Origin: Ceratodon purpureus
Taxonomy: Eukaryota > Streptophyta > Bryopsida > Pseudoditrichales > Ditrichaceae
Length of the DNA stretch: 64,000 nt
Assembly: GCA_014871385.1 (NCBI GenBank)
Contig: CM026426.1
Span: 14,043,810 to 14,107,809, forward strand
Reading direction: 5' to 3'
Shown: one piece after another, positions 11,477-62,246 of the stretch
Position numbering within the stretch: the first letter of the stretch is position 1
How the letters are laid out: every line of letters starts with the position of its first letter
The notes under the pieces: generated by a model
What the model was told of the DNA's origin: nothing
The model's input: the letters and a program-made list of their open reading frames with translations, nothing else
Databases searched by the model: none
Position numbers and translations under genes: made by a program

Positions 11477-11515
<39 letters not shown>

Positions 11516-42375: not shown

Positions 42376-42379
42376 CCTC
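42376..42379. repeat. Left 4-bp putative target duplication (CCTC)
   Basis: CCTC abuts the left terminal inverted repeat and is found again at 62,247-62,250, directly after the right one. Four bp can match by chance, but both copies start exactly where the inverted repeat stops. Confidence 0.55.
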
Positions 42380-42424
42380 AACACCATATTCGTTATTTTG
42401 GGAGATTTATCATCTCCCAAAATA
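42380..42424. repeat. Left terminal inverted repeat plus hairpin
   Basis: Positions 42,380-42,406 match the reverse complement of 62,220-62,246 without mismatch. Positions 42,393-42,406 (TTATTTTGGGAGAT) are repeated inverted after a 4-5 bp loop (ATCTCCCAAAATAA, ending 42,424), so the left end can fold on itself. The right end lacks this second arm. Confidence 0.75.
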
Positions 42425-43445
42425 ATGCATTAGGTCAGGTCGAGTTAAAATGGGCACAATGGTCCCATACTTGGCAAGGAAAAGCTTACAAGCAATTTCC
42501 ATTAATTTGGGACATGATCACACAGTAGTAATGGGAAATGAAAGAACGTAGTGGTTTACTAGAAATATTTGAAAAAATACATGGTAGGTCAAACCACCCT
42601 AAATGAACATCAAACAAATAACAAGAAATGGACACAACGGATATGCTGGAAAATCATATATTAGAGACCAAGACAAAAAGTTGGGGTCCTAATAGTTTTT
42701 CACTATTTGAAGCTCTAATTTTGATAAAATTCAAAAACTAATCATATGCTCACAAAGCTAAGCGAGGGAAATAGAATATTCTAAAATTCAAGAGGATAAA
42801 AAAGATGAAGTAATAAGATAAAATGTGAAAATAATAAATTACAATAATTTACAATTAATGTACTTTAAAAGTATATTGACAAGTTTGCCGTTAATATACC
42901 ACCAATTACCATCAATGTATTCTCAATGTGTAAATGCTTGCTTAAGTGTAGGACCTTTCAAGCCATAGAAACCAACTTATAGCCAAAAAAGTGTTGATGA
43001 GTACACCTACTCAATGAAATAGAAGGTGCAAAATTTTCCCTTGATTGTAATTAAAGGCATAGTGGATCAACATGATATTTCTTAAGATTTTTATACCTTT
43101 GTCCCCTTTACTCAACTTTCCAAGCATATAATTTATTTCAAATTTGGTGAGAAATTGAATTTGTGGGAAATGTTTAAGTGAAGACTCCATCTTTTTGTCT
43201 TGGTCTCTATATATATGTGTGGAAATACAATTTAGGTCGACACTCCTTAAATGCTGAATCCGTGACAGGCTCTTCCAGACCTGTACAAACAATCAAGTTG
43301 TTCGACCAACATAGCTGCCTGCAGTTTCCACAGTATGATATGCAATCAAAGAACATACTGACTTCAGTACAGTCCCATACCAACAAATGTATGTTATTGG
43401 CTCTACTTTAGAAATCGAAACTAGGAACTTCAGCGCTAGATGTCG

Positions 43446-43776
43446 TTTAGGTCGCCTCGACCTAAATGGCTGGTATGTGGCAATACATATGATATAGAAT
43501 CAACGCTTTAGGGTACTAAGTAAAAATCTACACAAAGAACTATAGATGACCTGTTGGTATCCCGCACTCGTAAAGTACGAACTTCAACGCCAAATGCAGT
43601 TTAGGTCGCCTCGACGTAAACTGCGGCCTATAATGTGGTATACATGATAAATAAGGAATGGACTGAAATACTTAAGTAGTGTTCCCTCCAACAAAATATA
43701 TGTAATTAGCTAGTATTCAAAACATAAATACGCTAGAACTAATACGCTATAACTGATTAGGTCGACTCGAGCTAAA
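43446..43776. repeat. Three 21-bp palindromes 3' of the DUF7869-like gene
   Basis: Copies at 43,446-43,466, 43,600-43,620 and 43,756-43,776 carry GGTCG-type variants of the arms, with one or two mismatches. They lie beyond the stop of the minus-strand gene, inside the element's left end. Confidence 0.85.
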
Positions 43777-43909
43777 CATCTACCTTTGTCTAGTAAAACA
43801 TAATGTTGGATGAAGGGACGAACGAAATTCAGTTCAGTCGTCTTCAAACGAATATAAGCGATCTGACTAAATTCAGAACTTCAAGACCACCAACTTGAAA
43901 GCTACATGT

Positions 43910-46748
43910 TTATTCAGAATCCGGAGACACAAATCTCTCCAAGGAGGCCTTTATAATGTCCAGTTGTTTCAGTGGAATCTTCAACGTTGGATCCTTGCCA
44001 ACGCCTCGCTCGTTGACATTTTTTTTAACTTTTGATTTCCAAGCTGTTATGACTGCATCAGTACTCTGCCACGACTCGGGTACATCCTTCTCAACTGTCC
44101 AACGAAGTCTCCCATCCACATCCCAGCCGGTATAGAATTTCAAAACATTTTCATCTCGGGAAATTCGACGGTAGAACTCTACTTGGATCGTGTTCGGAAG
44201 GTCAAGGTTCGAATTAGGGTCAGTCAAGGCCCTCGCAAGCCAGAAAGGACGATCGTCTTCATCGCAGGGTCGTAGCGCTAAGAAGTACCCTGCAAAAAGG
44301 TCTCGCGCAACACGGAATGACGGTCCTGGGCGATCTCGTTTTTGACCAACAAAGTGATCATCTTCTGCGAACTCCTCGCGCAAAGTTCCAGCTTCCTGAA
44401 ACTCGTCTTCGACGGAGTGAGCGAGCCGAGTGGATGGCCAAAAACCATGCTCCAAGGCGGGGACAACATCAAAGGGGATGGAAAGAGCCTCTTTAACATC
44501 GTTCCAATAGTATGAGAGTGGCTCATAGATTCTTCTGGACTGGACTGAATCCGAAGATAGCCTCTCCCAATGATCTACAAAACCCGACAAGCCCTTAATC
44601 ACATCAGGCAGGTGCCGCATCTCGCGAGGCGCCACGGCACCAGGAACACCACGGGGCCATAAAGATCGACCTTCTGAATCCTCCTTCCACAACTTGATGC
44701 CACAACCATCTCCTTTTGGCAACCAGTCGTCGTCGTGACAGAAGATTTTATACTTCATGACTGGGCATCCTGAAGAATCAACATAGAATTTGAACTGATG
44801 AGCTTTAGTGTGACCCATTAACGTATCGTCGCCATCAAGCATCCACTCCGCGATGAATTTCTTGAAATCTGGGACCTACTGAATGAAATGCGGAATTGTT
44901 GGTACAACTTCATTTTTCATGAAGGACTTCATGAGGAGAGGTACTGTGGGGAAGTCCTCCCTCCGCAAAGCCATGCTCCATCGCCCGAAAAGGGCATTAA
45001 TATCCTCATGAGTATGGCCGACCAGCATGAAGTTCATGTACACTTCGCGAAACACCCGCTTCGCGACTAATAGGGACCAGAATGAAAATACAAATCTATT
45101 CTTGTTATCACTGACAGCGTTATCCATTTGGACGTTAAGAATGGGAGGCAAGGGTTTAGCAGCAACAGGAACCTCAGGAGGAGGGCCAAGAGGATCCAAA
45201 CACATCTCTGAACCATGCAAAAGCGCGACATACAATGGGTGGGACGGATTTTCTTGAAAGAGTTCCCTAGAGGTGGATTTAGGGGGTGACTCAAGATCCC
45301 GAAGGAGCTTCGCAAACGATCCAACCGTGTAATTAGCGTCGTGTGAGTAAATGTCAAGGCCATAATGGGCGTAACCTTGGTCCACATGCCCATGAGCAAG
45401 CATTCCCGTGACAGCGAGAGGAAGCTTCATGAGACCGTCTAAGTGTTTGACCTTGTGGGATAAGGCCGGCGACGCTGTCTTCGAGTGGTCCATCTTGTCA
45501 TGCATAATTGTAAGAACTTCATGCGGAGTAGCCTTCGACCTGAATCGATTTAGGTATTACAAGTCCCTATGCGCCATTGCAGAGTCATTGTGCAGCCTCA
45601 TTTTCTTAGACCATAACAGGGACGCCTGAGATCCTGTTAACGTCAACTTCTTCTGGGACTGGAACTCATCACATTTTGAGCAACGAGCGAAGTTGTCTCC
45701 TGCCCGTTTGGCGTAATATTCTGGATAGCTAAGCCTCCCGATCTTGCTCAAGTTAGAGGCGGACATAGGAGGCAATCCACAGTCCGCTAGATGCTCATCG
45801 AGGATCAGAATCTGTTCCTTCCATTTGAAACTGGAAGGCAGAACTTTAGCTACAACTGTCTCCCCTGAAGGCAGAACACGACTATTGTGGAGCATGTGGT
45901 CGGCATGCCTGTCAAGGATGGCCCCTAGGACGGCAGCTGCTACGACTATGTGATTTCTAGGTTTACGTAAACCAGTATTACCGTGAAATTGAGCCTCAAA
46001 ACCAGCAGCAACATACTTGGCATTTCTATAAAATGTACTAGAGCTCACTTCCATAATCTTCATCCATGCAAAGGGGCAAACATCTATGCCCTCCAGAGTC
46101 ACCACACTCCTCCCCGCTGAATTCTTGTGGATCTGTCTATGCACGTCGAGTTTTTATGTGGTTACAGAACTGCACTGTGGTCTTGTCGTACATACGCGAC
46201 CGTAGAGTAGAGATTTTATCTCTGGGATAGTGTTGGACGCATAAGTGAGCGCAGCACGTGTTTGCCGCTACAGAGTTGATTGATGGCTGGGTCATGAGAA
46301 ACTCAGCGTGACGTGATATAGGTGGGGGGATATTCCTAGAGGAGTTATCATACGATCGGGTACGATCTCCCAGGGATCGGTTACGCTCCGCAACCCAACG
46401 GTTATGTACATCACGTTGACTATGATGCTCTAGGCTAACTCCATCCAGATAGACGTGGCTGATAGGCCACGTTTTGAAGGAGTACCTCCAATCATCCTCT
46501 GACTCTTCTTCGACTAACGAACGTGATACCTGGACGACGACAATGGAATCACCAAGGGGACCAACCGTGTCAGATACGAAGCTCGACCGTGGGTTCCGGA
46601 TCAAACCCTCTGCTAATGGGATATTGTCGTCACTGTAAATTGTACGAGTCTTCTTTTGCCACAATCTTGAGGAGACAACCACAAAGTCTGGAAGCTCTGG
46701 GTTTAAGGGCGCTTCAACCGGTACCTCGTCATCTGAGGAGTAATCCAT
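43910..46748 (-). pseudogene. DUF7869-like element protein, three breaks
   Basis: The start is taken at ATG 46,748 (MDYSSDDEVP). Order: acidic N-terminus; a Cys-containing segment ('TCCAHLCVQHYPRDKI', about 46.25 kb); 'VCPFAWMKIMEVSSSTFYR' (about 46.05 kb); a CSKCD knuckle (about 45.68 kb); 'IMHDKMDHSKTASP' (about 45.48 kb); 'QMDNAVSDNKNRFVFSFWSLL' (about 45.1 kb); 'LVGHTHEDINALFGRWS' (about 45.0 kb); and a long C-terminal region to 43,910. The DKMDH, QMDN..DNKNR and GHTHEDI triad is the signature of the family I know as DUF7869, which is common in plant and animal mobile DNA; its acidic/His residues suggest a nuclease-like fold (inference). Breaks: a frameshift in an A5 run near 46,145, TAA at 45,557 and TAG at 44,876. 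About 950 residues when whole. It may be the element's transposase. Confidence 0.75.
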
Positions 46749-46843
46749 TGTACTTGGAATGCAACAGATCCAATCATATGAGAACATATTATACTCCTTG
46801 AAGAGAATTCATCTGCCAGTCAGAGACCATAGTCCAGGCCCAG

Positions 46844-47053
46844 TTTCGCTCGACTCGAGCTAAACTGTTCCTGGACTATGAGAAGCAGGAGTTTAGCTCG
46901 ACTCGAGCTAAACTGCTGCTGCCTTTTGGATGCAGAAGTTTAGCTCGAGTCGAGCTAAACTAATGCTGCCCTTTGGATGCAGATGTTTAGCTCGACTCGA
47001 GCTAAACTTCTGATGCCGTGTGGATGCAGCAGTTGAGCTCGAGTCGAGCTAAA
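46844..47053. repeat. Five palindromes in a roughly 47-bp tandem array upstream of the DUF7869-like gene
   Basis: Copies at 46,844, 46,892, 46,939, 46,986 and 47,033 (each 21 bp) are spaced 47-48 bp apart. Spacers share a 'TTTGGATGCAGA'-like sequence. The array is just 5' of the gene, as expected of regulatory binding sites. Central bases alternate between C and G. Confidence 0.92.
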
Positions 47054-47099
47054 CTGCCGTCCGCAAAAAGCGGCGCTTTAATAGGTGCTTCCATCTACG

Positions 47100-47640
47100 G
47101 AATTCTGAGTCGCAGACTCAGAGTACGCTTACGGTGTCCGCTCTCAAACGTTTCCAAGAAGTAAAGAGAGACACTGCTAATACACCAAGACTTGAAACAA
47201 TGAATGCATACAACAACCAGAAATCAATGAGATGTACTGATGATCGGAGAAAACTAAAGAGAAGACGTACAAGAGAAACGGCGCAATACAGCTTCCGCCC
47301 GGAAAACAACCACCTCCAAGTGAGCGCCGAGAGCTCCTACACGCGAGAGAAGCAAGTGAGTAGAGAAAAGACTTCAAGCGGGGACAATTCCAGAGGTCAT
47401 TCTCTAATGTGTGACCGTTTTCATGCCGCTTGAGTTTTGAAAATAGGCGGGAATCATGAATGACCATTCGTCCCTCCACATTTCGGGGTGTGAGAAAGCG
47501 CGGGAATTACCACTTTCCATACTTCTCGGCCCTTTAGATAGATGCAGATGCAAAATATTTGGTGCATTAAATCAAATGAGATGGGTTGGAAGTCCCTATA
47601 GCGCCAGACAGAGTGTTGACTTTTGGCCCCGAACTTTTCC
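47100..47640. other. Probable edge of a nested segment
   Basis: No palindromes occur from 47,054 to 53,738. A small inverted repeat CTGAGTCGCAGACTCAG occurs near 47,105. I see no gene; the open frame at 47,134-47,433 has no recognisable content. Confidence 0.4.
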
Positions 47641-47647
47641 TCCTCTA

Positions 47648-47738
47648 TCAGGGTTCAGGGTTTAGGGTATAGGGTTAAGGGTTAAGGGTTTAGGGTCTTA
47701 GGTCCAGGGTTAAGGGTTTAGGGTATAGGGTTAAGGCG
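47648..47738 (+). repeat. Degenerate telomere-like tract (TTTAGGG/TTAAGGG)
   Basis: About twelve heptamer-like units such as GGTTTAG, GGTTAAG and GGTATAG follow one another. Plant telomeres are TTTAGGG. An interstitial tract can mark a repaired break or a former chromosome end. Confidence 0.75.
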
Positions 47739-48129
47739 TTTCTAGGGACATTAAATATCTTGTATATGGAATAAAATTAAATCGAAAATTGTTTGAACCT
47801 ATTTGAATTTCGTGAGTAAGGTTCATACAGGGAAGTATATCGTTGCAAATATTCATACCTCCATGTACAAGAGTATGTATTTTTGCTCAATTTCATTAGT
47901 ATATATGATGTATGAAATCAAAACATTATATTTGAGTTCATGAATAGTGGATAGACCTAGGTAGATATATTTTTAAATCTAGAATTATTTATTTATTCTA
48001 AATATTTAGTGAGATATAATTATCATGTACTTATATTCATGTACTTTTATTTATGTCTCTATTTATTTCATAATGTGTTCTTTACGCCGTGAATGGTGTA
48101 GTTTTCTTCTTTCGTTTCTGGAACTCTAT

Positions 48130-48620
48130 ATCTCAACATGTATATTTTTAATATACATGTTAGTATCATAATATGTATAATATAATTATATGTTCATTTA
48201 CAAGTAGGTACTAATATATTCAAAAACCATTTAATGTCCAATTAAGGATAGTACGATAATAATAAACTATATTCTAATATATAAAAATCTTAAAATGATA
48301 TACAAGTATATTCAAGTATGTACGAAATATATTGTTAAAAATAATAGTATTAGATTATAGAATTCAATTCATTTATCATGGCAAATTATATACGTTTTTT
48401 AGAAGATTGAATTTTTATATTTAATCATGAGACGCAAATATTTAAACGATGGTATGCCTTGTATGATTAGTATGGAAATTACATAAACCTTAATCAATTC
48501 TTTAATGTTCTACCTTTACTTATATTTGTACAATTTTATTACATTCTAATAAGAAAGTGGAATGTTTGGTTCATTCATATAATTTTATAAAACAAAACTC
48601 ATAAATCATGCATTTAAATG
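48130..48620 (+). repeat. Left arm of a long AT-rich inverted repeat
   Basis: Read as reverse complement, this block matches 50,100-50,585 in order: 'atgaatgaaccaaacattcc', 'gaattgaattctataat', 'ttcgtatataaacttgaata'-like, 'atattagtacct' and 'ctaacatgta'. Divergence is moderate with small indels. The two arms bracket the duplicated ORF at 48,950-49,477. Confidence 0.75.
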
Positions 48621-48949
48621 AAACGTACTAAATCAATGATTATAATTATAATTGTAGTATTAATATATGAAATCGAGAAAGGCACCATATGCTTCTGCAA
48701 GCATACAATCCCATTAATCAATTCTTTAATAATAAATAAAAATGTCACATTTAAGTTAATCTGGACTTTCAAAATTCCACATCGGTCAAAGTCCCGTTAC
48801 CAAGTCTGGTCAAAGTCCCCTTCGTTACTCTAGAACATTCGGCTTCCTGCCCATGCCCCTTCATAAGCATAAGTTCCTTTGGGCGACGAAACAGTTGTTT
48901 CATTCTTAGTTTCCCTTCTATTTCATCTACTTGTAGTTCATTTGCTGTG

Positions 48950-49477
48950 ATGAGGAGGTCGGGCGGTGGTTTTAGGGTGTCAAGTTACCCGCCAGACGAG
49001 TGGGAGGAGGTTGTTTCCCCACAAGGAGTGGAGGAGCTTCGTCCGTGGTTTATGGCGGTGGAACGCGCCCGTGGTCGCGGCGTAGAGATTCCCCCGTGGA
49101 ACCTCATTGCATGCCTAATGCAGCCTGGTGTGGAGTGGGATTGGACTATTGCACATGGTCTAGAGCAACTGGAGATTATGAACGCTTCCAACATTAAGTT
49201 TCCCCTCACCTCCGGCGAGGGCTTCTCTATGGCTGATTCTGATAAGGATGAGTGGGAGCCGGTTGTTTGGCCACAAGGAGTGGAGGAGCTTCGTCCGTGG
49301 TTTATGGCGGTGGAACGCGCCCGTGGTCGTGGCGTAGAGATTCCCCCGTGGAACCTCATTGCACGCATTATGCAGCGTGGTGTGGAGTGGGATTGGACTC
49401 TTGCACATACTCTAGAGCAAGTGGAGATTATGACCGCTTCCAACATCAATTTTCCCCTCACCTCCGGGGAGGTCTGA
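48950..49477 (+). CDS. Unrecognised ORF with an 84-codon tandem duplication
   Basis: ATG 48,950 opens MRRSGGGFRVSS. Two tandem copies of an 84-residue module follow (from about 48,995 and 49,247, exact 252-bp period). Each runs 'DEWE..V.PQGVEELRPWF', 'ERARGRGVEIPPWNLIA', 'GVEWDW', 'LEQ.EIM.ASNI.FPLTSGE'. Long stretches are identical at the DNA level, so the duplication is recent. The second copy shifts frame near 49,467; an alternative frame continues as 'MADSNEEGSENLGSPPHE' to 49,539, and plausible small exons follow near 49,634-49,662 and 49,770-49,800. I know no family. It sits between inverted repeat arms and could be the gene of a nested element. Confidence 0.55.
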   Translation: MRRSGGGFRVSSYPPDEWEEVVSPQGVEELRPWFMAVERARGRGVEIPPWNLIACLMQPGVEWDWTIAHGLEQLEIMNASNIKFPLTSGEGFSMADSDKDEWEPVVWPQGVEELRPWFMAVERARGRGVEIPPWNLIARIMQRGVEWDWTLAHTLEQVEIMTASNINFPLTSGEV

Positions 49478-50099
49478 TTCTAATGGCTGATTCTAATGAG
49501 GAGGGGAGCGAGAATTTGGGGAGCCCACCACATGAGTGAGTAGGTGAAATGTTATCTTCTCAGAACCCTTAACCTTGCCCTTAGTTTGATGTTTTCATAG
49601 TAATAGATTACGTTTGCTGTATGTATCGCGCAGAATTTCATTGGCTGATGCTGAGTTCGTGGTGAGTGTCAAGAGGATGAGTCCTTGCTTTTGACATGCA
49701 CTTTTCTGTTTTAAACCCTAAACATCATACCATCTGACCTTCTTTTTCTCTTTGCTCCTGAACTTGCAGGCATCTTCGATATACTTCTACGGTTGAACTT
49801 TTTGCTCCTAATCAGCTCAGATATGGAAAGGGGACTTCAGGACGTAGTTAGTAGGACCGTTATACTATACGATATTTGGCAACCATAGATGTAAAAACAG
49901 ATGACTTTCATCTTTTGGTAACTTTCGCTGATGGGGTTCCCCGTGTGGATTGTAACTATTTTTGGAATGGAATGCCTTCAAAACAGGGTTGTTTTAGATA
50001 AAAAAACAGTGTTTCATTTGATGCTTTCATATTTGTATATTTCGTATTCTTATATTTCCATGCTTTCTAATATATTTAGTAGTAAATTTCGTCTGAATC

Positions 50100-50585
50100 C
50101 ATGAATTATGCATTTTGTTATTTAAAATTATATGAATGAACCAAACATTCCTTTTTCTTATTATAATGTAATAAAATTGTAAGAATATTAGTCAAGGTAG
50201 AACGTGAATGAATTGATTAAGATTTTTGTAATTTACATGCCAATCATACAAGGCATACCATGGTTTTAATATTCGCATCTCATGAATAAATATAAAAAAC
50301 CCTAAACCTTCTAAAAAATATAAAGAATTTGCCATAATAAATGAATTGAATTCTATAATTTAATACTATTATTTTTAACAATGTACTTCGTATATAAACT
50401 TGAATATATTTGTATATCATTTTTAGATTTGTATATACTTGAATATAGATTATTATTCTCGTATTATAATCAATAATTAAATATAAAATTGTAAATGAAT
50501 ATATTAGTACCTTAGTATACTATACTATATTATTATATTATAAAAAAATTATGATTCTAACATGTACTTTAAGAATATGATGATT
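50100..50585 (+). repeat. Right arm of the long inverted repeat
   Basis: This is the inverted partner of 48,130-48,620. Its outer half (about 50,400-50,690) is repeated directly at about 51,443-51,735 with high similarity, including 'tatacttgaatatagattat' and 'ttagtaccttagtatactat'. Confidence 0.75.
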
Positions 50586-51442
50586 ACATTTAGGTAAATA
50601 TGTTTCGATTTAGAGTATATGAAATTCATTATCATTGCTAATAGTGTATTTATATTTGATGCTTTAGTCAAATAATTACAAATTATTATTACAAAATTAG
50701 AAGAAGCATTTTTTTAGGTAGAACGTTATTGAATTGATTAAAATTTACTTAATTCAAAAAAATCAAAAATCAAAATCTAATGTAGATTCATAAATTTATA
50801 TGAATGCAAATATAATCAAAATGCAATACCAACTTCACATAATGCAAGCATGTTTTGAAGCATTGTAAAAAATTACCAATACTTTTATTTAGAATAAAAT
50901 AAAAAACGAGTTCCCTATCCTGTTTAGTTTTCATTGGAACTCACATTGGGTTGGCAACCTCAACCCCATTCAGAGTACACATTAAGGGACATGGTTCTCC
51001 AATCCCATGTAAGTTATTGGAGCCATCATGGTGAATTCTTCTTAAGGTAAGAAAGAGCAGGTTTACCAAACCATATGGGGTTAACAATATGGAGACTGAA
51101 CCGCACTATCTATCTTTAAAGTAACTTCCTATAAAAAGTTATTTTCACTTTCTCACTACCCGAATCAGGTTCATACAAATAAAATAAAAAAAGGGACAGT
51201 AATATTTAACTCGCAATTCTTACAAATATTAATAATACCATTCAGTGATTTTGATATAACTGAAATTATTATTCCATACTGAAAATTAAAATTTTAAATT
51301 GTAGTATCTATGTACATGCTTGTATATGAATTCTGAATTATCAAAATCTTTGAACTCACATGGAATTTATTTGGAATAGAATTCTAATTCGTAGGTCTAG
51401 ATACACAAAATTTTTATATACACACAATGTATTTCGTATACA

Positions 51443-51735
51443 TACTTGAATATATTTGTATAACATTTTAAGATTTGTATATACTTGAATATAGATTATT
51501 ATTCTCGTACTATAATCATTAATTAAATATGATACTCTAAATGATTATATTAGTACCTTAGTATACTATAATAATTTTTTATATTATAGATAAATTATGA
51601 TACTAACATGTACTTTAAGAATATGATGATAACATTTATGTAAATATGTTTCCAATTAGAGTATAGTGAATTCCTTACATTGCTAATAGTGTATTCATAT
51701 TTGATGCTTTCGTTATATAAATACAAACTTTTACT
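51443..51735 (+). repeat. Direct second copy of the right arm
   Basis: It repeats about 290 bp of 50,400-50,690 at a spacing of about 1,040 bp. This indicates an insertion next to a related element, or a segmental duplication. Confidence 0.7.
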
Positions 51736-52339
51736 TGAACTCTAATCTTGTGAATTCAAATTAAATTCCTCTTTGAACAAATATTAACTTCATATATCTG
51801 AAAGGATTATTGTGTTAATTAAATTTGTAGACGTCTCATATTCAATTAATATTAGTAAAGATAAAATATACGTTAAAAAAGTAGAATATTTGCTACTCAT
51901 GAATATTTTTAGTTTCGTACAAATTAAGTTTCTCTAATAAGAAGCTAATTCGTACAAAAATATTAGATTCTCATGAATGTATTATTAAAGTACTATATTT
52001 ATACCTTATTAGATAGTAATGAATATTTACGAAATTTTAAATATTTGCTTCTCATGAATAAATATAAAAATTTCAATTCTCTAAAAATTGTTAATAATTT
52101 GCCTACTTAGATTTTGTGCTTTCTCATGTGTCTATACCATTACACAATATCATATATTAATACTACAACAATGATGTCCATTGATGTAGGACAATTCATT
52201 TGAATCCATAAAATGAAGATTTTATTTTTGGAATATATATAAAGAGTAAGAAAATAAAGTTTTGTTTATATATTTGAAAAAAGCCAAAAAGTATTGGTTG
52301 AATCAAATTTAAAATAACGAGGTAGAAAAAAGTAAATAA

Positions 52340-53620
52340 CATTTTAACCCGCGGGGACGGGGCATTGAACCCCGCGGTGACGGGGCCACGCGATTTGGCG
52401 GCGCGGTCACGGGCCCGTGCGAGGGGGAGGAACTAATCCCCACCGCGACCTTGTCCACGAAGGTGTTTGCTCCTTCGTTTCTCTATGTGTGTCTGTGTCT
52501 GCGCTTGTTTCTTGGTGGTGGCGGGAGTGAATTTCGTGAGAGAATGTGCACTACAGTGTGTTTCGCGCGAGTTTTGGGGGCGTCCTATGTTCCGTTTGCT
52601 TCGTCTAGAGGGTGTAAGTTGTTTGTTTGAAGTAGTGTTGGTCTCTAGGGTTTAGGTTTTATCTTGATGGTTTGAAGTGTTCGTGCGCGGAGGGAGTTCC
52701 AGGTGTTTGGCGCTGCGGTCTGCATTTGTTTCTTAGTTTTCTTTTCCATGTTCTTGTGCTGGGTTCTTCCTCCGTCTTTAGGGTTTAGGTTTATTCCGAT
52801 TCTTCTGTTCTTGTGCGAACTTCTTCGGTGCTCTGTGGAGGCGTGCGATTTGGATTGGGATTTCTGGAGGCCTTGAAAACGCTGCTGGGCTAATTTTCAG
52901 GTGCGTAACATATCGCTTTACTGGTTTCCTCTTCTTTCAGTTCAATTGCAGTGACTTTTGCGATTTAGGGTCTTCTCGATTGAGCTTTTTCGTTTATTTT
53001 CTCTTCCAATTATGAATCCTTGGCATGTTCTCGCTAGTTTAGGATAAGCATCCTGTAATTTTTTTAACGAATTCAGAGTTGTGTGTCTCTGTTTGTGTTC
53101 GTATTCTTTATGTGATATGTGTGTGTCTGTCTGTGGCCGAATTCTATCTTGTGTTTGTATTCTGTGTGTGTCTGTTTGTGTTCGAATCCTATGTTTCTTC
53201 GATGCTTGACTGTAATTGCTAGATTTAGATAGGAATTCTCGTGTTATATGTTTTGGGATCAGAGTGCACGCATTTCAAGTGAATCTGAATCTGTGTTGCG
53301 ACTGTTTCTGCATCAGTGTCATTGCTGTGTGTAGAAATTTATAGGTTTTATGGATGAGGTGACTGCATTCAGATGTAGTTCGTGTTGTAGTTGAAGTTAT
53401 GTTTAATCACATCCTTTTCTGAATTGGGTACAATTTGGCGCCAATGCTCACGTTCACATGTTTCACCGTATGCTTATTAGATCCCATTAGCTTATAATAG
53501 GAACTGTACATATGGAATCCAAGTTCATTTGTACTATTCACCCGTATTTTTCGGCACAATTCTACAACATTTCAATTATAGATGTATGATCCGATCCTCT
53601 GCAACCATTCATTTTTGCAG
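52340..53620 (+). promoter_or_regulatory. GC-rich promoter and non-coding leader of the plus-strand gene set
   Basis: An abrupt GC-rich block (52,345-52,460: ACCCCGCGG-type repeats, high CpG) interrupts AT-rich DNA, followed by a GT/T-rich leader typical of a plant 5' untranslated exon. A likely donor (CAG/GTGCGTAAC) is at about 52,900 and an acceptor (TTTTTGCAG) at about 53,620, giving a leader intron. No TATA box is obvious. The open frame at 52,467-52,655 is probably an upstream ORF without meaning. Confidence 0.5.
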
Positions 53621-53738
53621 GAAGAACAAATTTGACAAGACATTCGTTCCAGAAATTGAATATATCCATCTGGAAATGGCAGAGAGGTAACAAACCAAAT
53701 GCCAATTTTGTATAAATCACCGTATAGAACCTCAACAG

Positions 53739-54374
53739 TTTAGCTTGAGTCGAGCTAAACTGCAGCTTTCAAAAAAAATATACAAAAACTGAATAAAAAC
53801 AATAATTTCTGCACATTTAAATCAGAAAAATTCTATTATACAACCTTGCAGTTTAGCTCGACTCGAGCTAAACTGTAAGGAGCTTTGCAGTTTAGCTCGA
53901 GTCGAGCTAAACTGCAGAGCTCTCACAGTACTGAACTTACAGCTAATCTGTAAGTTGTGAACTGTGGAAGCTCTGCAGTTTAGCTCGACTCGAGCTAAAC
54001 TGCGGAGTACCTTACAGTTTAGCTCGAGTCGAGCTAAACTAGAGGTGCAACTCCCCTAATTTCCTAGGAGAGAAACCTACAGTTTAGCTCGAGTCGAGCT
54101 AAACTGTGCGTTCTCCCTTCTAAAGTCCTGGCAGTTTAGCTCGAGTCGAGCTAAACTGCAAGGGGATCATGGTGGGCGTTGAGCAATTTAGCTCGAGTCG
54201 ATCTAAACTGCTAGGGATCATGGTGGGCGTCCCAGCAGTTTAGCTGGAGTCGACCTAAACTGCTCCACCCCTACCATGGGCCCCTTGCAGTTTAGCTCGA
54301 CTCGAGCTAAACTGCTGGGATGTCATGTGTTATATTTTGTAATTGAACCAACATTTAGCTCGAATCGAGCTAAA
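53739..54374. repeat. Eleven palindromes inside intron 1
   Basis: Copies start at 53,739, 53,852, 53,891, 53,979, 54,018, 54,083, 54,134, 54,187, 54,239, 54,291 and 54,354. Most are perfect with both arms intact. All lie between the donor at 53,687 and the acceptor at 54,416, so they would be removed from the mRNA. Confidence 0.95.
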
Positions 54375-55887
54375 TGGCTTTGAATTTGTCTAATGGTAAA
54401 CGTCTCCACCTTGCAGTGAGGAGAAAGCAAGGGTACTTGAGGCGCTACAACATTTCTTCAAGCCTGTTCCTAACTCGGATTCGGATGACGATGACGGGGA
54501 TGACTCAAACACATTTGAGCCGTGGACTTTCAAAGACCCCTCCAAGGTGAAAAATTGGACATTGCGATGGGCTGCGCACACCCCTTATCTAAAATTTGCT
54601 ACCATATTCAAGGGTGAAGTCCAAGATCCCCAGGTCATCGACATGGAAACGAAGGTCACTGAGTTTGACCATAAGGGGAAAGAGATCATAAAGATCATGT
54701 GCTCATCTATGGGGAATAATCCATACCTCTTCACCATAGTAGTGGACGTAGCAGAGAACCTCTTCGACCCGATATCCTTAATGGAAAGTCTGTCGAATTC
54801 ACCCTACGACGAGATAGTGACCACAATGAGGCAAGAAGTACTGGACAGGAAGTGGGCAACAAAAGATGGACGTACTCTCCCGGCGAAATCCCTAGCCTGG
54901 AAACTGAGGAATGTTGTCAGCACCCTTACGCTCGCCGCAACGGAGGCAAAGGTTAAACAGAACCTGGGAAAATCTCATATTGACGTTTCTGGAGTGACAG
55001 CAACCGGGAGCCAAATGGGAAGCCAACAGACAGGACGCAGTAGGGGGAGAGCAATAGTTCCTTCCCAAAGCCGGGGCGCTTCTGCAACTCCCACACCCCT
55101 CTCTCCATTGAAGAAGAATGGCCTCGAGAAGAAAACCGACAAGCCAAAGCCCAAGAAGGACTTGCTCTTATCTGCGGAGGACTTAGCAACAAGTTTGAAC
55201 TCTGTTCTCGGGGAACTCCCAAAGGTGAACAAGGTTGGAGAGGTCCTGAACTTCGATAATGCCAACCGAATTTACCAGAATTTCTTCGCTGATTGCCAGG
55301 ACGAGTTCGTCTTCAAAACGAATGGGCAACCAAAGAAGTTCAGTGTGGACGTGACGCGGTGCAAGCCCGCACCGGCCCATTGGACTATCCGTGCATATGA
55401 GAAGCGGGGCATGGAGGAGATGAAGAATTACTTGGTCAACATGCCGGATAGGACACAGAAGCAAACCCTGTGTCTCATGCCAGACACGAAGGCACGGCCA
55501 CAACTAGAAGAGGATCTAAGGGGTTGTACATTCCATATCATCAACGGGCAACACAGCGTTGCGGCGTCCAAATCTCTCATCGAGGATAACGCCAGTGAGG
55601 AGTTGGTGAGGGACTTCAGGAGGTGGGACGCGTACATCGTTTGGACGCATGATGTTCATAAGCTGAGAAAGATCTCAGCATTCTATAATCGGGTGAACCA
55701 TCTCGCACCCTTTAAGCCAACTTGGGCGAGCAATATACTTGCCTCAAGAAAAGTGTGGGTGAAGTATGGTAAGCCGCAAAAGAAACATGCTGCCGCTGGT
55801 GCAGCCGAGCGCAGGAGTACAGGTCCAAAAAGTAATCCAGCGTCGAAGACATACGACGTAAGTTCACTGATTCATTAGCATTAGCAG

Positions 55888-56006
55888 TTTAGCTCGACTC
55901 GAGCTAAACTGCAGGCAGTTTACCTCGAGTCGAGCTAAATATTGATAATCTTCTTGTTTTCAATATTCTGGTGTATCTCGAGCAATTTAGCTCGAGTCGA
56001 GCTAAA
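55888..56006. repeat. Three palindromes inside intron 2 of the ParB-like gene
   Basis: Copies at 55,888-55,908, 55,919-55,939 and 55,986-56,006 fill most of a 199-bp intron. The middle copy has TTTACCTCGA as its left arm. Confidence 0.95.
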
Positions 56007-57445
56007 GAGTAGTTCTGTGACAGCATCATCTAAGGTTTCTTCGTGTGCGTATGCAGAACTTTGTGAATGCAATCAGGGAGCGCTTCGCTATGATCGATGT
56101 GGCGAAGCATCAAGCCCTAGTGGCGAAGAAGGGAGGGAAGAACACTATCTCCCTAACAAACGAGCTGACGATCATCACATCCAGTGATGAAACATGGGAC
56201 CTGTGGAAGGAGGTGATCGCGTCTGTGGCATGTGGTGGACTCATTGTTCCCGACACCGAAGCACCTCATAAGAAATTCTATGAGAAGAAGGGGTTCGTTC
56301 CAGACAAGGATGGGACGCTTCCGAGGGAGTTCTTCAAATGGCAGGGGAACTTGACAGAGGCAGATCACCAGAAGCTGTGTAAGCACATTCTGCATAAGTC
56401 TGGGCCAAGTCGGAAGTACACATATCCGAAGGTTACCATCAAGCAGAATACGAATGTACTGGAGGACTGCTACTCCGTCAAGGAGTGGGCGGAGCGGAGA
56501 AAACGTAAGGCTGTAGCTCAGGCGGAGTTCAACAACATTAATCCAACGCTCCATCTATTCAAAAGAGACGGCTTTGATGTACCCGCTTGGAAGCATTTCA
56601 AGAAGGCTTACCATGTCTCCAAGGAGTCCAAGCACGTTCTGCTTGATTGGGGTATTCCAAACTCGTACTGGACTAACTCCAGAGCTACACAGTTCCGCAA
56701 CAAGTCCGCCAAGGATCTCTCCCCATATGCGGTTGAGTTCTTTAAAACCTTCCTGAAGGTTCGACATGCGTTTCAGAGTCCTTTGCTGAGATGTCGTTTC
56801 TCCCATTCATCATGGAACCTCGACTCGCCTTTGGATCTTGGCCCTCCGATATATGGAGGTTGGCGGGCGAGGCACTCACATTCGGAATCATCGACTTCCG
56901 GTTCCTCCCAACCTACAAGACGAGGCATAACTACACTTTGGAGAACCCCTTCTTCATGGAGTTTTTCAAAATGATCGATGACTATGGGGAGCCCCAGTTT
57001 GACGATATTCGGCAGTGGCTTCTCATTTGCGGAGACGATGAGGACTTCGCCCAGGTGCTCACTTGGGTGGAGCGAAACACCTTGAGTGGTCGTAGAAGAG
57101 TCCATTCGGAGTATTTACCCGCTCCTAACGAGCGACTTGGCGGACACCCCCCAAAGAGCAGAATCGCGATGGAACCCGTCAAACTCCTGTTTCTCATTGA
57201 TGATAATTTACTTGAGAACGAAGTGTCAACGCCAGAACCTCTGAGCCAGTACACAACTCCGGACCACCCACTGTACAAGGACAACACGAAGTTCAACGAA
57301 AGGAGGTACGCAATGTATCCATCCGAGTTAAGGATGGAGTTCTACCTGCAGGTCCACGACACTTTCTGCAATACTGAGGGGGCGGTTTATCAGCTCTATG
57401 GTGGAACGAAGTCCCTCATGGCCGCCGCGGTATGTGTTTCCAAAC

Positions 57446-57537
57446 TTTAGCTCGAGTCGAGTTAAATCGTTCTACTGTTTTGATCTTATGGACCATGTAT
57501 GCATACACTTCCACACTTTAGCTCGAGTCGACCTAAA
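57446..57537. repeat. Two palindromes inside intron 3 of the ParB-like gene
   Basis: Copies at 57,446-57,466 and 57,517-57,537 each have one or two arm changes (GTTAAA, ACCTAAA). They occupy a 140-bp intron. Confidence 0.95.
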
Positions 57538-58608
57538 CCTTGTTTACCTTGCCTTTGTTTTTTTTCCAGATGCTCTCGATCTTGGCTTTCGTGGTCGCGG
57601 ATGATAGTGACTCGTCTCATATGATCGAAGCACAATCACTTGGATTGACTCTGGACCGAACTGATCTTAGTGTCCACGCTTATTATGTCCATATGGAACG
57701 CTTTCCGGAATATGGCAAAGATGTGCGGAAAGAGAAAGGCAGAGCTGTGGAGGAGGGTGACGATGAAGAAGTGGAGGAGGATGCCCCTACCAAAGAACAG
57801 ACCCCCTCCTCCAGTGCTGCGGACATCAGCAATGAGAGCGATGCGCCGCCTTCTGATCCGGTAAGTCAGACAGCATCTGAGGGTGGAGTGGGGAGAAGAC
57901 TCGATTTCCCTAACGTCAACATTACGTGTACGAACGATGAGAGACCGGGTTCTGCACCGGAGCTGGGATCTGGAAGTGGGAGAAAGACTGGCGGTGCGCG
58001 AAGTCCTGGAAAGCCGGCACAGAAGAAAAAGAAGGTTAATCCTACAGCTTGGCAAGCCTCCCCGTTGGGAAGAGCCGCTCCCTCTCCGGATGTTCAAGCT
58101 CTTATGGCAGAATTATAGGCGTCCAGGGAAAGGGAGAAAGACTTACAAGATAAGATGGCACAGCAGAAAATGGATATAGAGAAGACAATGCAGGCGACAG
58201 TGCAGGCGGCTCTGCGAGGCATCAGTAATGTCCCTATTTTCCCGAATGCGGGTCCAGTTCTGCCTAACGTCCAGCCGATAGGTAGCGCCCCACCTACTTC
58301 GCGAGTAATTGAGATTTTGGGATCCCCTACGAGTGGTGCAAAATTGCCAATGTCGGATCCGAGTCCCGCATCAGTGCCTGAGCCAAGCCATCATTGCACC
58401 GACCAGGTCATGCGTGACCCTAGTCCAAGCCCACCCCGTTCTCCCTTCCACAATCAGACTCACGGAGATGCTCCCGAGACATCTTCAGGTCCCTCCCAAA
58501 CTTAGATTTTTTGAACTCGGAATTTTGTAGATGAGGTGTTAATACCGGAGTAGTTCACTGAAATGTGCATTTTGTACCAAAGCGACTGTAATTAATACAA
58601 ATAGGCTG

Positions 58609-58629
58609 TTTAGCTCAACCCGAGCTAAA
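58609..58629. repeat. Single diverged palindrome between genes
   Basis: TTTAGCTCAA and CCGAGCTAAA around a central C lie about 100 bp after the stop at 58,505 and 157 bp before the next ATG. Both changes from the consensus fall at the inner CpG positions. Confidence 0.85.
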
Positions 58630-58765
58630 CCGTTCAACTTTTTACCAATCCCTTCTATGTCAGCTTCATTGATCACTCTCTGATGATTCTATAGTTCTCT
58701 TGCAATGCCGAGGTCAGGAAGTACATGAGGAAGTGGACGATCTTCCGATCTTAAATGATGTTGTC

Positions 58766-59879
58766 ATGGCCCAAACTGCGGATGAGCCTATACGCACAAA
58801 TATGGATTTAGATGTCACGGCCCAGTGTGCTCTTACCTTGCCAACGTGCGTAGAGGTCATTCCTGACGATCAACCTCAGGATTCATTAGGGTCGATGGGT
58901 CCTGTGGAGGATCGGGATGTTGTAGAAGGACAAGCCGAGGATGTTCAGGTATTTCATCCATCATTATATCTCGTTGCACTGCTTCCTTGGTAACTGACTT
59001 GCCTTGCGACTGTCCTCATTGTATCATTCGTATAACTCCGTCCGAGTATAATATAGTAATGTCCATCTGTCATCAGTATTTCCTCTCTAGGTGCGCGAGG
59101 CATCTGGATGTGACGTAAGTTCTAGTGAAGAATTGAGTCCTGTCCCGACGCGACCTCAAACTGGTTGGTTGAATGTTGTCCTCAACCTCAATGGAATACT
59201 TTGCTCCAGTACTCCTCATTGGCCTGGAAAATCATTTGTTAGCCATGACCTTAGCATCCACTCAACGTCCAAGCTAGCAGTCGTGGGCCCCAAGCTTGTT
59301 TGTGTCAGGCCCAATTGCGTTGATTTCCTTCGTCGGTTGTCAACGTTTGCAACCATAACCGTCTGGAGTTCGATGAAGACTTCAACGAGAAAAATGATCT
59401 GCGACTATCTGTTCGGTCCGATTCGTACTGTCTATCCGCTCTGAATTCTAGGTCAAGAGGACTGTCAGAGAGTTCCTATGGGCGTAGATTTTCGAGGTCG
59501 TCCAGTATATATGAAGGAACCCGGGACTCAGAAGGACATCTTCCTTAAGCCGATGTCTGATGGTCTCTTTTGTAAATTTGGTGGCCTATATTCCGAAGCC
59601 AACACCATTTTTATCGACGACAGCCCGATCAAGCACTGTCAGAATAATTCTCACAATGTCCTTTTACTCTCCACTTGGAACAACCAGAAACCCAATGCCG
59701 CAGATGATCGTTATTTGTTGTCGAAACTTTTGCCATATCTTGTAGACCTACACCACTTTGTGGGGACAATCGCTAGATTCAGGGCCGAGCGTCCGATCGG
59801 GAAGAAAATGTATTATGATGACCGTTCTACCTGTGAACAATACGCTAAGATTAACGAGGCAATTAGTCGTAGAGCATAA
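58766..59879 (+). pseudogene. FCP1/HAD-like protein with Asp-to-Asn at the nucleophile and an in-frame TGA
   Basis: ATG 58,766 (MAQTADEP) was chosen because it is in frame; exon to 58,948; intron 58,949-59,090; exon 59,091-59,879. The second exon has the plant FCP1/HAD-like order: motif I 'VVLNLNGIL' at about 59,175-59,200, where the family normally has DLNG; 'RPNCVDFLRRL...ITVWSS' (about 59,310-59,370); 'GQEDCQRVP' (about 59,454-59,480); 'KDIFLKPMSD'; and 'NTIFIDDSPIKH' at about 59,605-59,640, which keeps the acidic motif. TGA 59,442 interrupts the frame just before GQEDC and clear homology continues after it. HAD/FCP1 enzymes are Mg-dependent phosphatases; losing the first Asp should abolish phosphatase activity. 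About 310 residues when read through. Confidence 0.75.
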
Positions 59880-60109
59880 TTTGGCATGATTTTGGTTCTC
59901 TAGTTTGTTAATAGACATTTCTGAACTACCGCGGAGCTATTAGTATATTGTACATCTTAACCACTTGCGTAATCTTTGTATCCAGACTACTCCTTTTGTA
60001 ATACAAAGTTTATATTTCTTTCTTGATCTATTCTGCCCCTTGCGACGAACCCTAAACCATTGCTGAATTATTGGGGGATGTATGTTTCTATTCGCTTTAT
60101 GTATTGCAG

Positions 60110-60939
60110 GATAATGCACGTCGAGCCTCAGTGGATTCTTTGAATAATGCTTATGGCTGCGGGCCCTCTCTACGTAGCAGAGGGCTTCTGTTGCAATCCG
60201 TTGCAACAGCGCAGTCCAGGATGGACTACTCAACTATGGCTGTCGACAAAGGGGTTGTGGACAGCCCGGTTAACCTGTCCGTTCCCAAGACCCTGAAATC
60301 CCCTTCTCCTATGTGGCCACGGACCGTACTGCAGGTTCTATCTCCGAAACGACAGAGTTCTACCCCTACAAAGCGTGCTCTTTATAACAATGTGGAGGAC
60401 ATGCCGTCACCACCACCGGCAAAGGTTGGTTTTCATTCCTGAGTATTCGCTTTTCATTCCTTTCTGATGTTTCATTCCTGTAAGTTTCTTTCAATATGTT
60501 TCATTCTGATGTCCTTATTTTAGCTCGAGGCCACCTAAAATGATTGATCTTTTTATACTTTCATCTAGGTCTGGTTCTAGCTTATGTAGGCCTCCTCGTT
60601 CAAGGTCCGTTCGACCTTTACACTTGCACTCAGCAGTTTAGGTCGATTCGACCTAAACCGAAATCTCTTCCCAATGCTAATTTATCCCCTTTGCAGATGC
60701 CGAGGCTACGATCAACAACTACAGGATCCGGGGCAAGGAAGTCCGGCGACTCCCACTCTAAACCATCCAGTACCCGTCGCCACTCTCTGCCAGAGTCAAG
60801 CATTGGTGACAGGCGTAGGCAGAAGTTGCAACGTCTTCTTGATAGTCCAATGATGCAGGTCGATGGAATGTCGTGGACTTGTCAGCGCCAACGGGAATTT
60901 GTCAAGTCAAGAATTGAGGCTTACGGAGGGACTCCATAA
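60110..60939 (+). CDS. Small basic Ser/Arg-rich protein, two exons, 5' end not seen
   Basis: Exon 60,110-60,424 follows an acceptor (TATTGCAG) and reads 'DNARRASVDSLNNAYG'; a donor at 60,425 and acceptor at 60,696 lead to exon 60,697-60,939 ('MPRLRSTTTGSGARKSGDS', ending TAA). Phases match. The product is Ser/Pro/Arg rich with 'SVPKTLKSPSPMWP' and 'SPKRQSSTPTKRALYN' stretches and a final 'CQRQREFVKSRIEAYGG'. The first in-frame Met inside the exon is at about 60,221, so an upstream exon may exist, possibly joined to the FCP1-like transcript. No known family. The intron carries two palindromes, tying it to the same element. Confidence 0.55.
60519..60657. repeat. Two palindromes inside the intron of the small basic gene
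   Basis: A diverged copy is at 60,519-60,539 and a good GGTCG-type copy at 60,637-60,657 (arms TTTAGGTCGA and TCGACCTAAA), both between the donor at 60,425 and the acceptor at 60,696. Confidence 0.9.
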
Positions 60940-61034
60940 CCATATAGAGGATACTATGTACTGTATAGCAATGGCGCAGACAATGTAGACAATTATAAGA
61001 GTCGTCTGTGTTATTTCAGTGTAATTATGTTTTG

Positions 61035-61040
61035 AATAAA
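61035..61040 (+). terminator. Poly(A) signal AATAAA
   Basis: AATAAA lies about 95 bp after the last stop codon (60,939) and is followed by T/GT-rich sequence. It fits 3' end formation of the plus-strand gene set. Confidence 0.55.
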
Positions 61041-61227
61041 ACGATTGATGTGTTTGTCAAATTTTCTCGTCTGCTATTTTTGCCTCATTGTTTTGCACAC
61101 TTTTCCGAATGTAATTTATGTGATTGGACATTGCCTTTTATTAAAACCTTGGTTTAGAAAGGTAGCGAATAGTTATTACTAAAAATACAGGGGATGTGGT
61201 ATATTCTTTTTCCCTGTTTATATTGCG

Positions 61228-61248
61228 TTTAGGTGTGATTGACCTAAA
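61228..61248. repeat. Diverged palindrome near the right end
   Basis: TTTAGGT...ACCTAAA with a degenerate centre (TTTAGGTGTGA / TTGACCTAAA). It sits directly left of the TTAA that borders the MITE. Confidence 0.75.
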
Positions 61249-61256
61249 TGACTTAA

Positions 61257-61993
61257 GGGGGGAAGCACAATAAAGTGGACCACAAAAGTGCTTAGCTCAT
61301 TGCCAATTTCAGCCTGTTGTATAAACCCGCTAGAAAGTGGCATCTAAAACTTCTTGATGGGAAATTAAGTTTAGGATACGGAAAGTAGACTTGATGTACT
61401 ACAACTTCCGAAATTTGCATTTGTAGTTGTTGAGTTGAGACACCTCTATGAACACGACAAAGTTGAACAAAGTGAATGCAGTCATTTGGAAAAGTGACCG
61501 TATTACATTGTAGTTTTGACAGAAATCACTTTTAACTTTGTGGGGCCCTTCGTTTGTACATTACGCTTGTAGAAATGATCCGGGTGGTCGTGTTTGCAAT
61601 CCTAGATTGGCAAAAAGTATCCCCGGGACGTTTTTAAAACACTGTTTTCGGTGAAACTTTTTGTGAGGTTTTTTTCACCGAAAATTGTTTTTTAAATTGG
61701 AAAAAACATCCTCTGAAGACAATAGAGGGCCCCAAATGAAGAAATCAAGACTTTGGAAAAGTTCATTTTCATGATTTAGAACTAGGGGTCAAATAAAGTT
61801 TCAATTGAAGATGTTTTTTTCATTGAGATGTGTGTAAGATACCTTATGACACCTTAGAAAGTGACTAAAATGCTCAAAAACTACACCAAAATGCTCAAAA
61901 TCAGCTTTGAGCTATAAAAAACAGCACACTTCATATTCACTTCCTAGTGATCACATATTGCACTTGGTGGTCCACTTTATTGTGCTTCTCCCC
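61257..61993. mobile_element. 737-bp MITE with inverted ends and TTAA flanks
   Basis: The left end GGGGGGAAGCACAATAAAGT (61,257) and the right end, read in reverse complement from 61,993 as GGGGAGAAGCACAATAAAGT, are inverted repeats of at least 27 bp with one mismatch. TTAA is present on both sides (61,253-61,256 and 61,994-61,997). It has no coding capacity. TTAA flanks suggest piggyBac/Kolobok-type targeting, or TTA with PIF/Harbinger; I cannot decide. Confidence 0.85.
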
Positions 61994-62070
61994 TTAATCA
62001 TCATCTCTCTTTAAACATGTTTTTAATGAATCAATGAACATTACTAAGTTTTCTCCTGTATGTTTGTGCA

Positions 62071-62091
62071 TTTAGGTCCACTCGACCTAAA
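62071..62091. repeat. Right-most palindrome
   Basis: TTTAGGTCCA and TCGACCTAAA around a central C. It is 129 bp inside the right terminal inverted repeat; no further copy was seen in the rest of the window. Confidence 0.85.
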
Positions 62092-62219
62092 TGACATGGG
62101 CCTCATTGTTCCTTTAAGGTGTTTTTAATGATTCAATATTGATTTCCGCAAGATTGAAGTAAATGGGAAGGCACGAATGTGGCCATTTCTCTACACGCTG
62201 ATTTCCCAAATTCAAGAAT

Positions 62220-62246
62220 ATCTCCCAAAATAACGAATATGGTGTT
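62220..62246. repeat. Right terminal inverted repeat
   Basis: A perfect 27-bp inverted match to 42,380-42,406, followed by CCTC at 62,247-62,250. Confidence 0.75.

Follow-up and report, generated by a model that had tools for sequence, protein, structure and literature searches.

We analyzed a 64,000-nucleotide stretch of the genome of the moss Ceratodon purpureus (contig CM026426.1 of assembly GCA_014871385.1, forward-strand positions 14,043,810 to 14,107,809), referred to here as the window, and found that it carries one copy of a large transposon. The element is bounded by a perfect 27-bp inverted pair: its left terminus, AACACCATATTCGTTATTTTGGGAGAT, recurs at the right end as the exact reverse complement, with CCTC immediately outside each copy, and the chance expectation of such a pair in 64 kb is ∼1e-7 by our own arithmetic. 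This confirmed what an earlier note, made from the letters of the window alone, had reported. Between the termini lie a minus-strand gene for a DUF7869 protein, most plausibly the recombinase and called the transposase here, and two plus-strand genes: one of three exons that we call ParB-like after its INGQHS motif, and one for an FCP1-like protein (Table 1). The window copy is decayed, with a broken transposase frame and an FCP1-like exon interrupted by two stops.

Table 1. Features of the element, by position in the window
Feature	Position	Strand	Remark
Left target-site duplication, CCTC	42376..42379	.	Lone CCTC in C11 paralogous empty site
Whole element, window copy, decayed	42380..62246	.	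19,867 bp; 27-bp perfect inverted ends
Left 27-bp terminal inverted repeat	42380..42406	+	At least 40 genome copies of 121-bp left end
Three left subterminal palindromes, GGTCG variant	43444..43781	.	2 to 4 mismatches to consensus
DUF7869 gene, putative transposase, frames broken here	43910..46787	-	PF25273 E = 2.5e-36; 955-aa single frame in other copies
Five palindrome sites upstream of transposase gene	46842..47058	.	47-48 bp spacing
Eleven palindrome sites upstream of ParB-like gene	53737..54379	.	
ParB-like gene exon 1, INGQHS motif	54403..55857	+	Donor site; C3-family homologue E = 5e-51
Three palindromes in ParB-like intron 1	55886..56011	.	
ParB-like gene exon 2, frame broken here	56057..57431	+	End estimated from C10 copy; homologous C3-family exon
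Two palindromes in ParB-like intron 2	57446..57542	.	
ParB-like gene exon 3, broken here	57570..58503	+	End estimated from C10 copy
Palindrome between ParB-like and FCP1-like genes	58607..58634	.	
FCP1/NIF-like phosphatase exon, two stops here	59052..59873	+	PF03031 E = 1.2e-13 in C10 copy
Right-side palindromes, one subterminal at 62069-62096	60635..62096	.	
Right 27-bp terminal inverted repeat	62220..62246	-	At least 40 genome copies of 131-bp right end
Right target-site duplication, CCTC	62247..62250	.	Lone CCTC in C11 paralogous empty site

The element proved to be a real multicopy, cut-and-paste transposon of 15 to 20 kb. In a genome search, each end was found at least 40 times at 98 to 100% identity (the best 40 of 197 candidates and the best 40 of 183). 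Ten further copies were read: four whose two ends had been paired beforehand and six from the left-end list. In two of these six, the 20 kb retrieved contained no right end, and they were excluded from the count of target-site duplications (TSDs). The eight other closed copies measure 15.3 to 18.9 kb, giving a range of 15.3 to 19.9 kb with the window copy, and the 4-bp flanks were identical in all nine closed copies, with no two copies alike (CCTC, ATTG, AATG, TCGA, AAAG, CTGG, AAAC, AAAA and TTGT). When the window flanks were joined via one CCTC and searched against the genome, two uninterrupted paralogues were recovered, at C11:15159308-15159599 (74%) and C6:78568774-78569065 (73%). The C11 paralogue, read base by base, aligns ungapped over 87 bp through the insertion site with a single CCTC; the C6 match spans the join and rests on the 73% match. 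Different 4-bp duplications and empty sites were the signs of mobility that the earlier note had named, and both were found. It had also considered that the 27-bp repeat might belong to an unrelated miniature inverted-repeat transposable element (MITE), an origin ruled out by the internal transposase gene common to all 10 further copies. We also observed that the inner half of the left inverted repeat recurs inverted at 42392-42424 (TTATTTTGGGAGA ... TCTCCCAAAATAA), a potential terminal hairpin.

Open frames common to the C10, C8 and C5 copies comprise 955 aa on the minus strand and 492, 504, 321 and 275 aa on the plus strand. The 955-aa protein matched PF25273 (DUF7869) with E = 1.5e-42 in a Pfam profile search, and the same profile matched in the window, as the earlier note had read it. 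Three motifs of D/D/D type, HDKMDH, QMDN and HTHDDID, are invariant in an alignment of three transposase proteins; they make the note's assignment of DUF7869 as the recombinase the most plausible one. DUF7869 is presumably a DD(D/E) transposase with an RNase-H fold, and it probably belongs to the Sola group. The 955-aa frame was present in 31 of the 150 transposase matches listed genome-wide. At least 150 DUF7869 matches were scored in this genome, where they fall into several families according to frame length; the 14 control genomes scanned gave none. A separate DUF7869 family whose open frame measures 678 aa occupies dozens of places on many contigs (e.g., C9:8410657 and C10:5766691), with many identical scores, and is probably a smaller, recently active relative.

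The transposase matches listed were also enriched on C6, which holds 109 of the 150. This contig measures 110.5 Mb, or 30% of the 362.5-Mb assembly; the genome of C. purpureus is described as 360 Mb, with U and V chromosomes of >100 Mb each that make up ∼30% of it (PMC8000587), and C6 is presumably a sex chromosome.

The frames of 492, 504 and 321 aa join via two predicted GT-AG introns of phase 0 into one ParB-like protein of 1255 aa, and the 275-aa protein of the C10 copy matched NIF/FCP1, which agrees with the FCP1/HAD-like reading in the earlier note. Ratios of nonsynonymous to synonymous substitution (dN/dS) against the C10 copy were 0.13 to 0.31 for the transposase (10 of 10 copies), 0.09 to 0.45 for the ParB-like gene (10 of 10, two in part only) and 0.10 to 0.45 for the FCP1-like exon (8 of 10, with no match in two). 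Since substitutions in both accessory genes are biased to synonymous sites, these genes are selected and not mere passengers. Active phosphatases have DxDxT; because DLNGIL stands in its place in the C10 copy (window 59052-59873; L040:6920-7744), the FCP1-like protein may be catalytically altered.

The three genes also travel together. The scored genome lists hold the best 150 of 1025, 87 of 722, 140 of 756 and 150 of 1398 matches, and linkage and copy numbers are thus lower bounds. A divergent transposase lay 4 to 25 kb from 67 of the 87 ParB-like matches listed (0 to 2 in position-shift controls) and a transposase 6 to 30 kb from 95 of the 140 FCP1-like matches listed (0 to 3), while the FCP1-like gene followed 1 to 9 kb downstream in 76 of the 87 ParB-like matches listed, at a median of 4619 bp. 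From the transposase side, a listed ParB-like partner was found for 67 and a listed FCP1-like partner for 95 of the 150 matches listed. The neighbors that the earlier note had suggested looking for next to DUF7869 were therefore present, and the opposite-strand genes, which it had allowed might never occur together, were linked over many copies, which rules out unlinked host genes. We conclude that the transposase and the opposite-strand ParB-like and FCP1-like genes move as one unit under purifying selection.

A second hallmark of the family is a palindrome with the consensus TTTAGCTCGANTCGAGCTAAA, whose sites are concentrated ahead of the two main genes and within the ParB-like introns. The window contains 15 perfect palindromes (arms of at least 9, all four bases), 14 of them inside the element, a count that leaves out simple, self-complementary TA-type repeats present outside (e.g., near 11479). 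The claim of the earlier note that all palindromes are confined between the ends held for the family palindrome, with 27 sites inside the element at ≤3 mismatches and none elsewhere in the window at ≤5 (four weak matches appear at 6), and failed for one AT-rich palindrome at 25810-25828. Nine copies carry 16 to 33 sites each (≤3 mismatches). Genome-wide, there are 2293 perfect sites and none for the reversed control, and 49 of the first 50 listed lie in or beside elements found via protein searches. In the C10 copy, 7 of the 31 sites lie upstream of the transposase and 13 upstream of the ParB-like gene; the two introns of the latter hold three and two, one site precedes the FCP1-like gene, and three and two more are subterminal. 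Coding sequence, which makes up 40% of the element, contains no site, an avoidance for which a p of 1e-7 treats tandem sites as independent. Four of the five subterminal sites in this copy have GGTCG with both arms changed, and such double arm changes number 34 in 247 sites.

We further noted three features of the window copy itself. An insert of ∼545 bp at 42664-43207, not in the ten other copies, has its own inverted ends (AGAGACCAAGACAAAAA) and TA-rich flanks and appears by its structure to be a nested MITE-like element. Another of ∼736 bp at 61257-61992, not in the other closed copies, has TTAA flanks and inverted ends near GGGGAAGCACAATAAAG and is a candidate nested piggyBac-type MITE. 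A telomere-like array of TTTAGGG variants at 47649-47736 adjoins large inverted and direct repeats at ∼48.1 to 52.3 kb.

The transposase of a distant family on C3 shares 55% identity with that of the window family over 937 aa, and the first 12 bp of an end of the C3 element match the window terminus (AACACCATATTC), with 6 mismatches in 27. Upstream of this transposase stand nine palindromes TTCAACTCGANTCGAGTTGAA (≤2 mismatches), in which the core is kept and both arms are changed. Perfect TTCAACTCGANTCGAGTTGAA sites number 14 in 362 Mb, all on C3: four at C3:52326-52600, which is upstream of the transposase, and 10 at C3:20391-24408, where the spacing mirrors that of the cluster ahead of the ParB-like gene and of its two introns in the window family. 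This layout led us to predict exon 1 in the corresponding gap, and reading it revealed a 522-aa open frame with VNGQH and 27% identity over 465 aa (E = 5e-51, for a single short subject sequence). In the next gap, an exon 2 homologue was found in two frames, with 38% and 31% identity and a combined E of 1e-68 obtained in the same way; the exon is therefore interrupted or has an extra intron. At the place corresponding to exon 3, similarity in the next 391 bases after AG/ATG was too weak to count. The palindrome sites had thus predicted a diverged ParB-like gene (27 to 38% identical) located 30 kb from the C3 transposase, and palindrome and gene have both diverged within the same layout.

One relative was found in a GTDB scan, on a 4.3-kb contig (L050, CADCWO010000071.1) filed under a cyanobacterium as part of a "Synechococcales" metagenome-assembled genome. 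Its intact 963-aa transposase frame is 67% identical over its length and its coding DNA ∼70% identical, and an upstream palindrome matches at 28 of 28 bases. The contig is presumably contaminating DNA of another moss in the bin.

We consider it probable that these copies represent a giant autonomous transposon family of 15 to 20 kb, apparently Sola-like, with its own palindrome-recognizing factor. The DUF7869 transposase would insert the element with a 4-bp target duplication, and the 1255-aa ParB-like protein, one half of which may be a degenerate methyltransferase-like region, would bind the palindromes as a dimer. By this binding the element could recognize, regulate and perhaps de-silence itself, as VANC does for VANDAL, and the FCP1-like protein may have a role in transcription. 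That the palindromes and the ParB-like gene differ together in a distant relative suggests that an element-made protein recognizes its own DNA. More tentative, and unlikely to hold as it stands, is the specific scheme in which a ParB-fold protein would load at the promoter and intron palindromes, spread over the element, and mark it as self so that it stays expressed in the face of host silencing, with co-evolution of protein and palindrome stopping cross-talk between families of one genome.

Several observations weigh against a ParB-like palindrome binder. From the earlier note's reading, the motif and a real, conserved gene remain, and the ParB-like label is a reading of that motif: no ParB match for this protein was found in Pfam, NCBIfam, PHROGs or PDB sequence searches, the C3 homologue giving a single sub-threshold profile match over the motif (DUF6551, E = 0.022). 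The end of exon 2, AGTKSLIAAA (GGGKLSCAA in the C3 family), recalls methyltransferase motif I by eye; no methyltransferase profile matched, the DPPY motif of N6/N4 DNA methyltransferases was not seen, and PDB sequence searches with the ParB-like domain and the methyltransferase-like half returned nothing meaningful. A sub-threshold Pfam match of exon 2 to MHCassoc_trimer (E = 0.003 to 0.02) was taken as chance. Among the matches listed, 20 of the 87 ParB-like and 45 of the 140 FCP1-like ones have no listed transposase partner. As for the C3 family, its exon E-values carry the restriction given above, and no ParB-like gene had been seen in the first 14.6 kb of the element at an earlier stage; the two C3 palindrome clusters are likely to be parts of a single element, in view of their orientation, their order and the lack of such sites elsewhere, and this element would then measure ∼36 kb or more. 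Finally, the transposase itself could be the palindrome binder.

This last possibility, in which the palindromes would be the transposase's own sites, for subterminal binding and promoter autoregulation, and the ParB-like gene an unrelated passenger, is conceivable, if on the unlikely side. The subterminal palindromes near both ends in the window family would fit transposase binding too, and every place where palindromes were inspected at the sequence level also had a transposase, among them the 4.3-kb contig L050, which is too short to show a ParB-like gene. However, the sites of the C3 element are found at the promoter and surrounding the ParB-like gene, and none was found at ≤4 mismatches between the C3 transposase and its near end. 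Selection on the ParB-like gene and the sites in its introns, present in the window family and, by position, in the C3 family, likewise speak against a passenger.

The superfamily also had to be considered, since the earlier note had described a transposon with no known superfamily signature, a claim that could not be established. None of the nine different TSDs is TTAA, the target of piggyBac and Kolobok elements, which speaks against both. Ginger elements have TG...CA termini, terminal inverted repeats of 40 to 270 bp and a Gypsy-like integrase, versus AA...TT, 27 bp and DUF7869 here (PMC10741241), and the 8-bp TSD of Zisupton (PMC12730594) versus 4 bp speaks against KDZ/Zisupton. Sola elements, by contrast, are described as DDD transposons with 4-bp TSDs, mostly of 2 to 9 kb and some of >15 kb, with very variable ends and terminal inverted repeats of 11 to 1124 bp (PMC10741241), and they occur in Physcomitrella (PMC10741241; table in PMC9033089). 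Our element agrees in its size, its moss host, its 4-bp TSD in all nine closed copies and its 27-bp repeat, the last a weak criterion. Moreover, in Sola1-1_Ec32, a 21.5-kb Ectocarpus element, the strand opposite the transposase encodes a protein with ParB-like and methyltransferase parts (PMC12477816). Both elements have a 4-bp TSD, exceed 15 kb and place a ParB-like gene opposite the transposase (1104 aa there, 1255 aa here), whereas a methyltransferase domain is recognized in the Ectocarpus protein and only a motif-like string is seen in the moss one; neither palindromes nor an FCP1-like gene are reported in the available excerpt of the Sola1-1_Ec32 description. The excerpt of PMC6431247 mentions neither Sola nor ParB.

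Because these published traits and the opposite-strand ParB-like gene fit, the element is most likely Sola1-like, a likeness of descriptions rather than of sequences. A new transposase superfamily unrelated to Sola is distinctly unlikely, given these same matches in size, TSD, host and accessory gene. It would accord with the lack of a functional name for DUF7869 in Pfam, of a publication on it in the literature searched, and of anything meaningful in PDB sequence searches with the 955-aa transposase or the three-protein profile.

We regard as quite improbable that the palindromes bind a host factor or act as insulators or hairpins, with the element encoding no binder of its own. They are near perfect and could in principle form cruciforms, but the placement of 49 of the first 50 perfect sites listed ties them to the elements, and a fixed host factor is not an easy explanation because the palindromes of two families in one host differ on both arms. 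A viral origin of the element (Polinton or similar) would match the large size and several genes and is nevertheless hardly credible, as viral contigs hold no relatives of the transposase or ParB-like exon 1 in single-protein scans for close relatives, no polymerase, capsid or integrase matched among the open reading frames (ORFs) scanned, and the TSD is 4 bp. A plasmid search found no relatives either.

These results give DUF7869 a likely function, as the transposase of a large group. The ParB-like accessory, already published for an algal Sola1 element, is in the moss conserved, selected and accompanied by its own palindromic sites. New here are the palindrome clusters at the main genes and their change on both arms in the distant C3 family. 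The system may offer a plant example of transposon self-recognition different from VANC, with two families and two palindromes in one host.

Bacterial ParB-parS systems combine a DGxxR-like motif with palindromic sites close to the gene of the element itself. The moss element is similar in its NGQH motif, which is DGxxR-like, and in its palindromes near its own gene; it differs in the missing profile match, the absence of ParA among the ORFs scanned and its eukaryotic host, and the parS palindrome differs from that of the moss in sequence and length. A closer parallel in layout is offered by VANDAL elements, which are of the Mutator type. Membership in Mutator is excluded by TSDs of 7 to 12 bp (PMC10741241) versus 4 bp here. 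The motifs bound by VANC occur as dynamic tandem repeats, located upstream of VANA21 and within introns of VANB21 and VANC21, and in Arabidopsis the protein and its motifs evolve together (PMC5735166). VANC is not described as ParB-like in the excerpt of that source, and its motif YAGTATTAY differs from the moss palindrome (PMC5735166). Nevertheless, the layout is the same in kind, with sites upstream of one gene and in introns, and in both systems gene and motif diverge together. The moss element may thus work like VANDAL/VANC in counteracting silencing, by way of an apparently unrelated protein.

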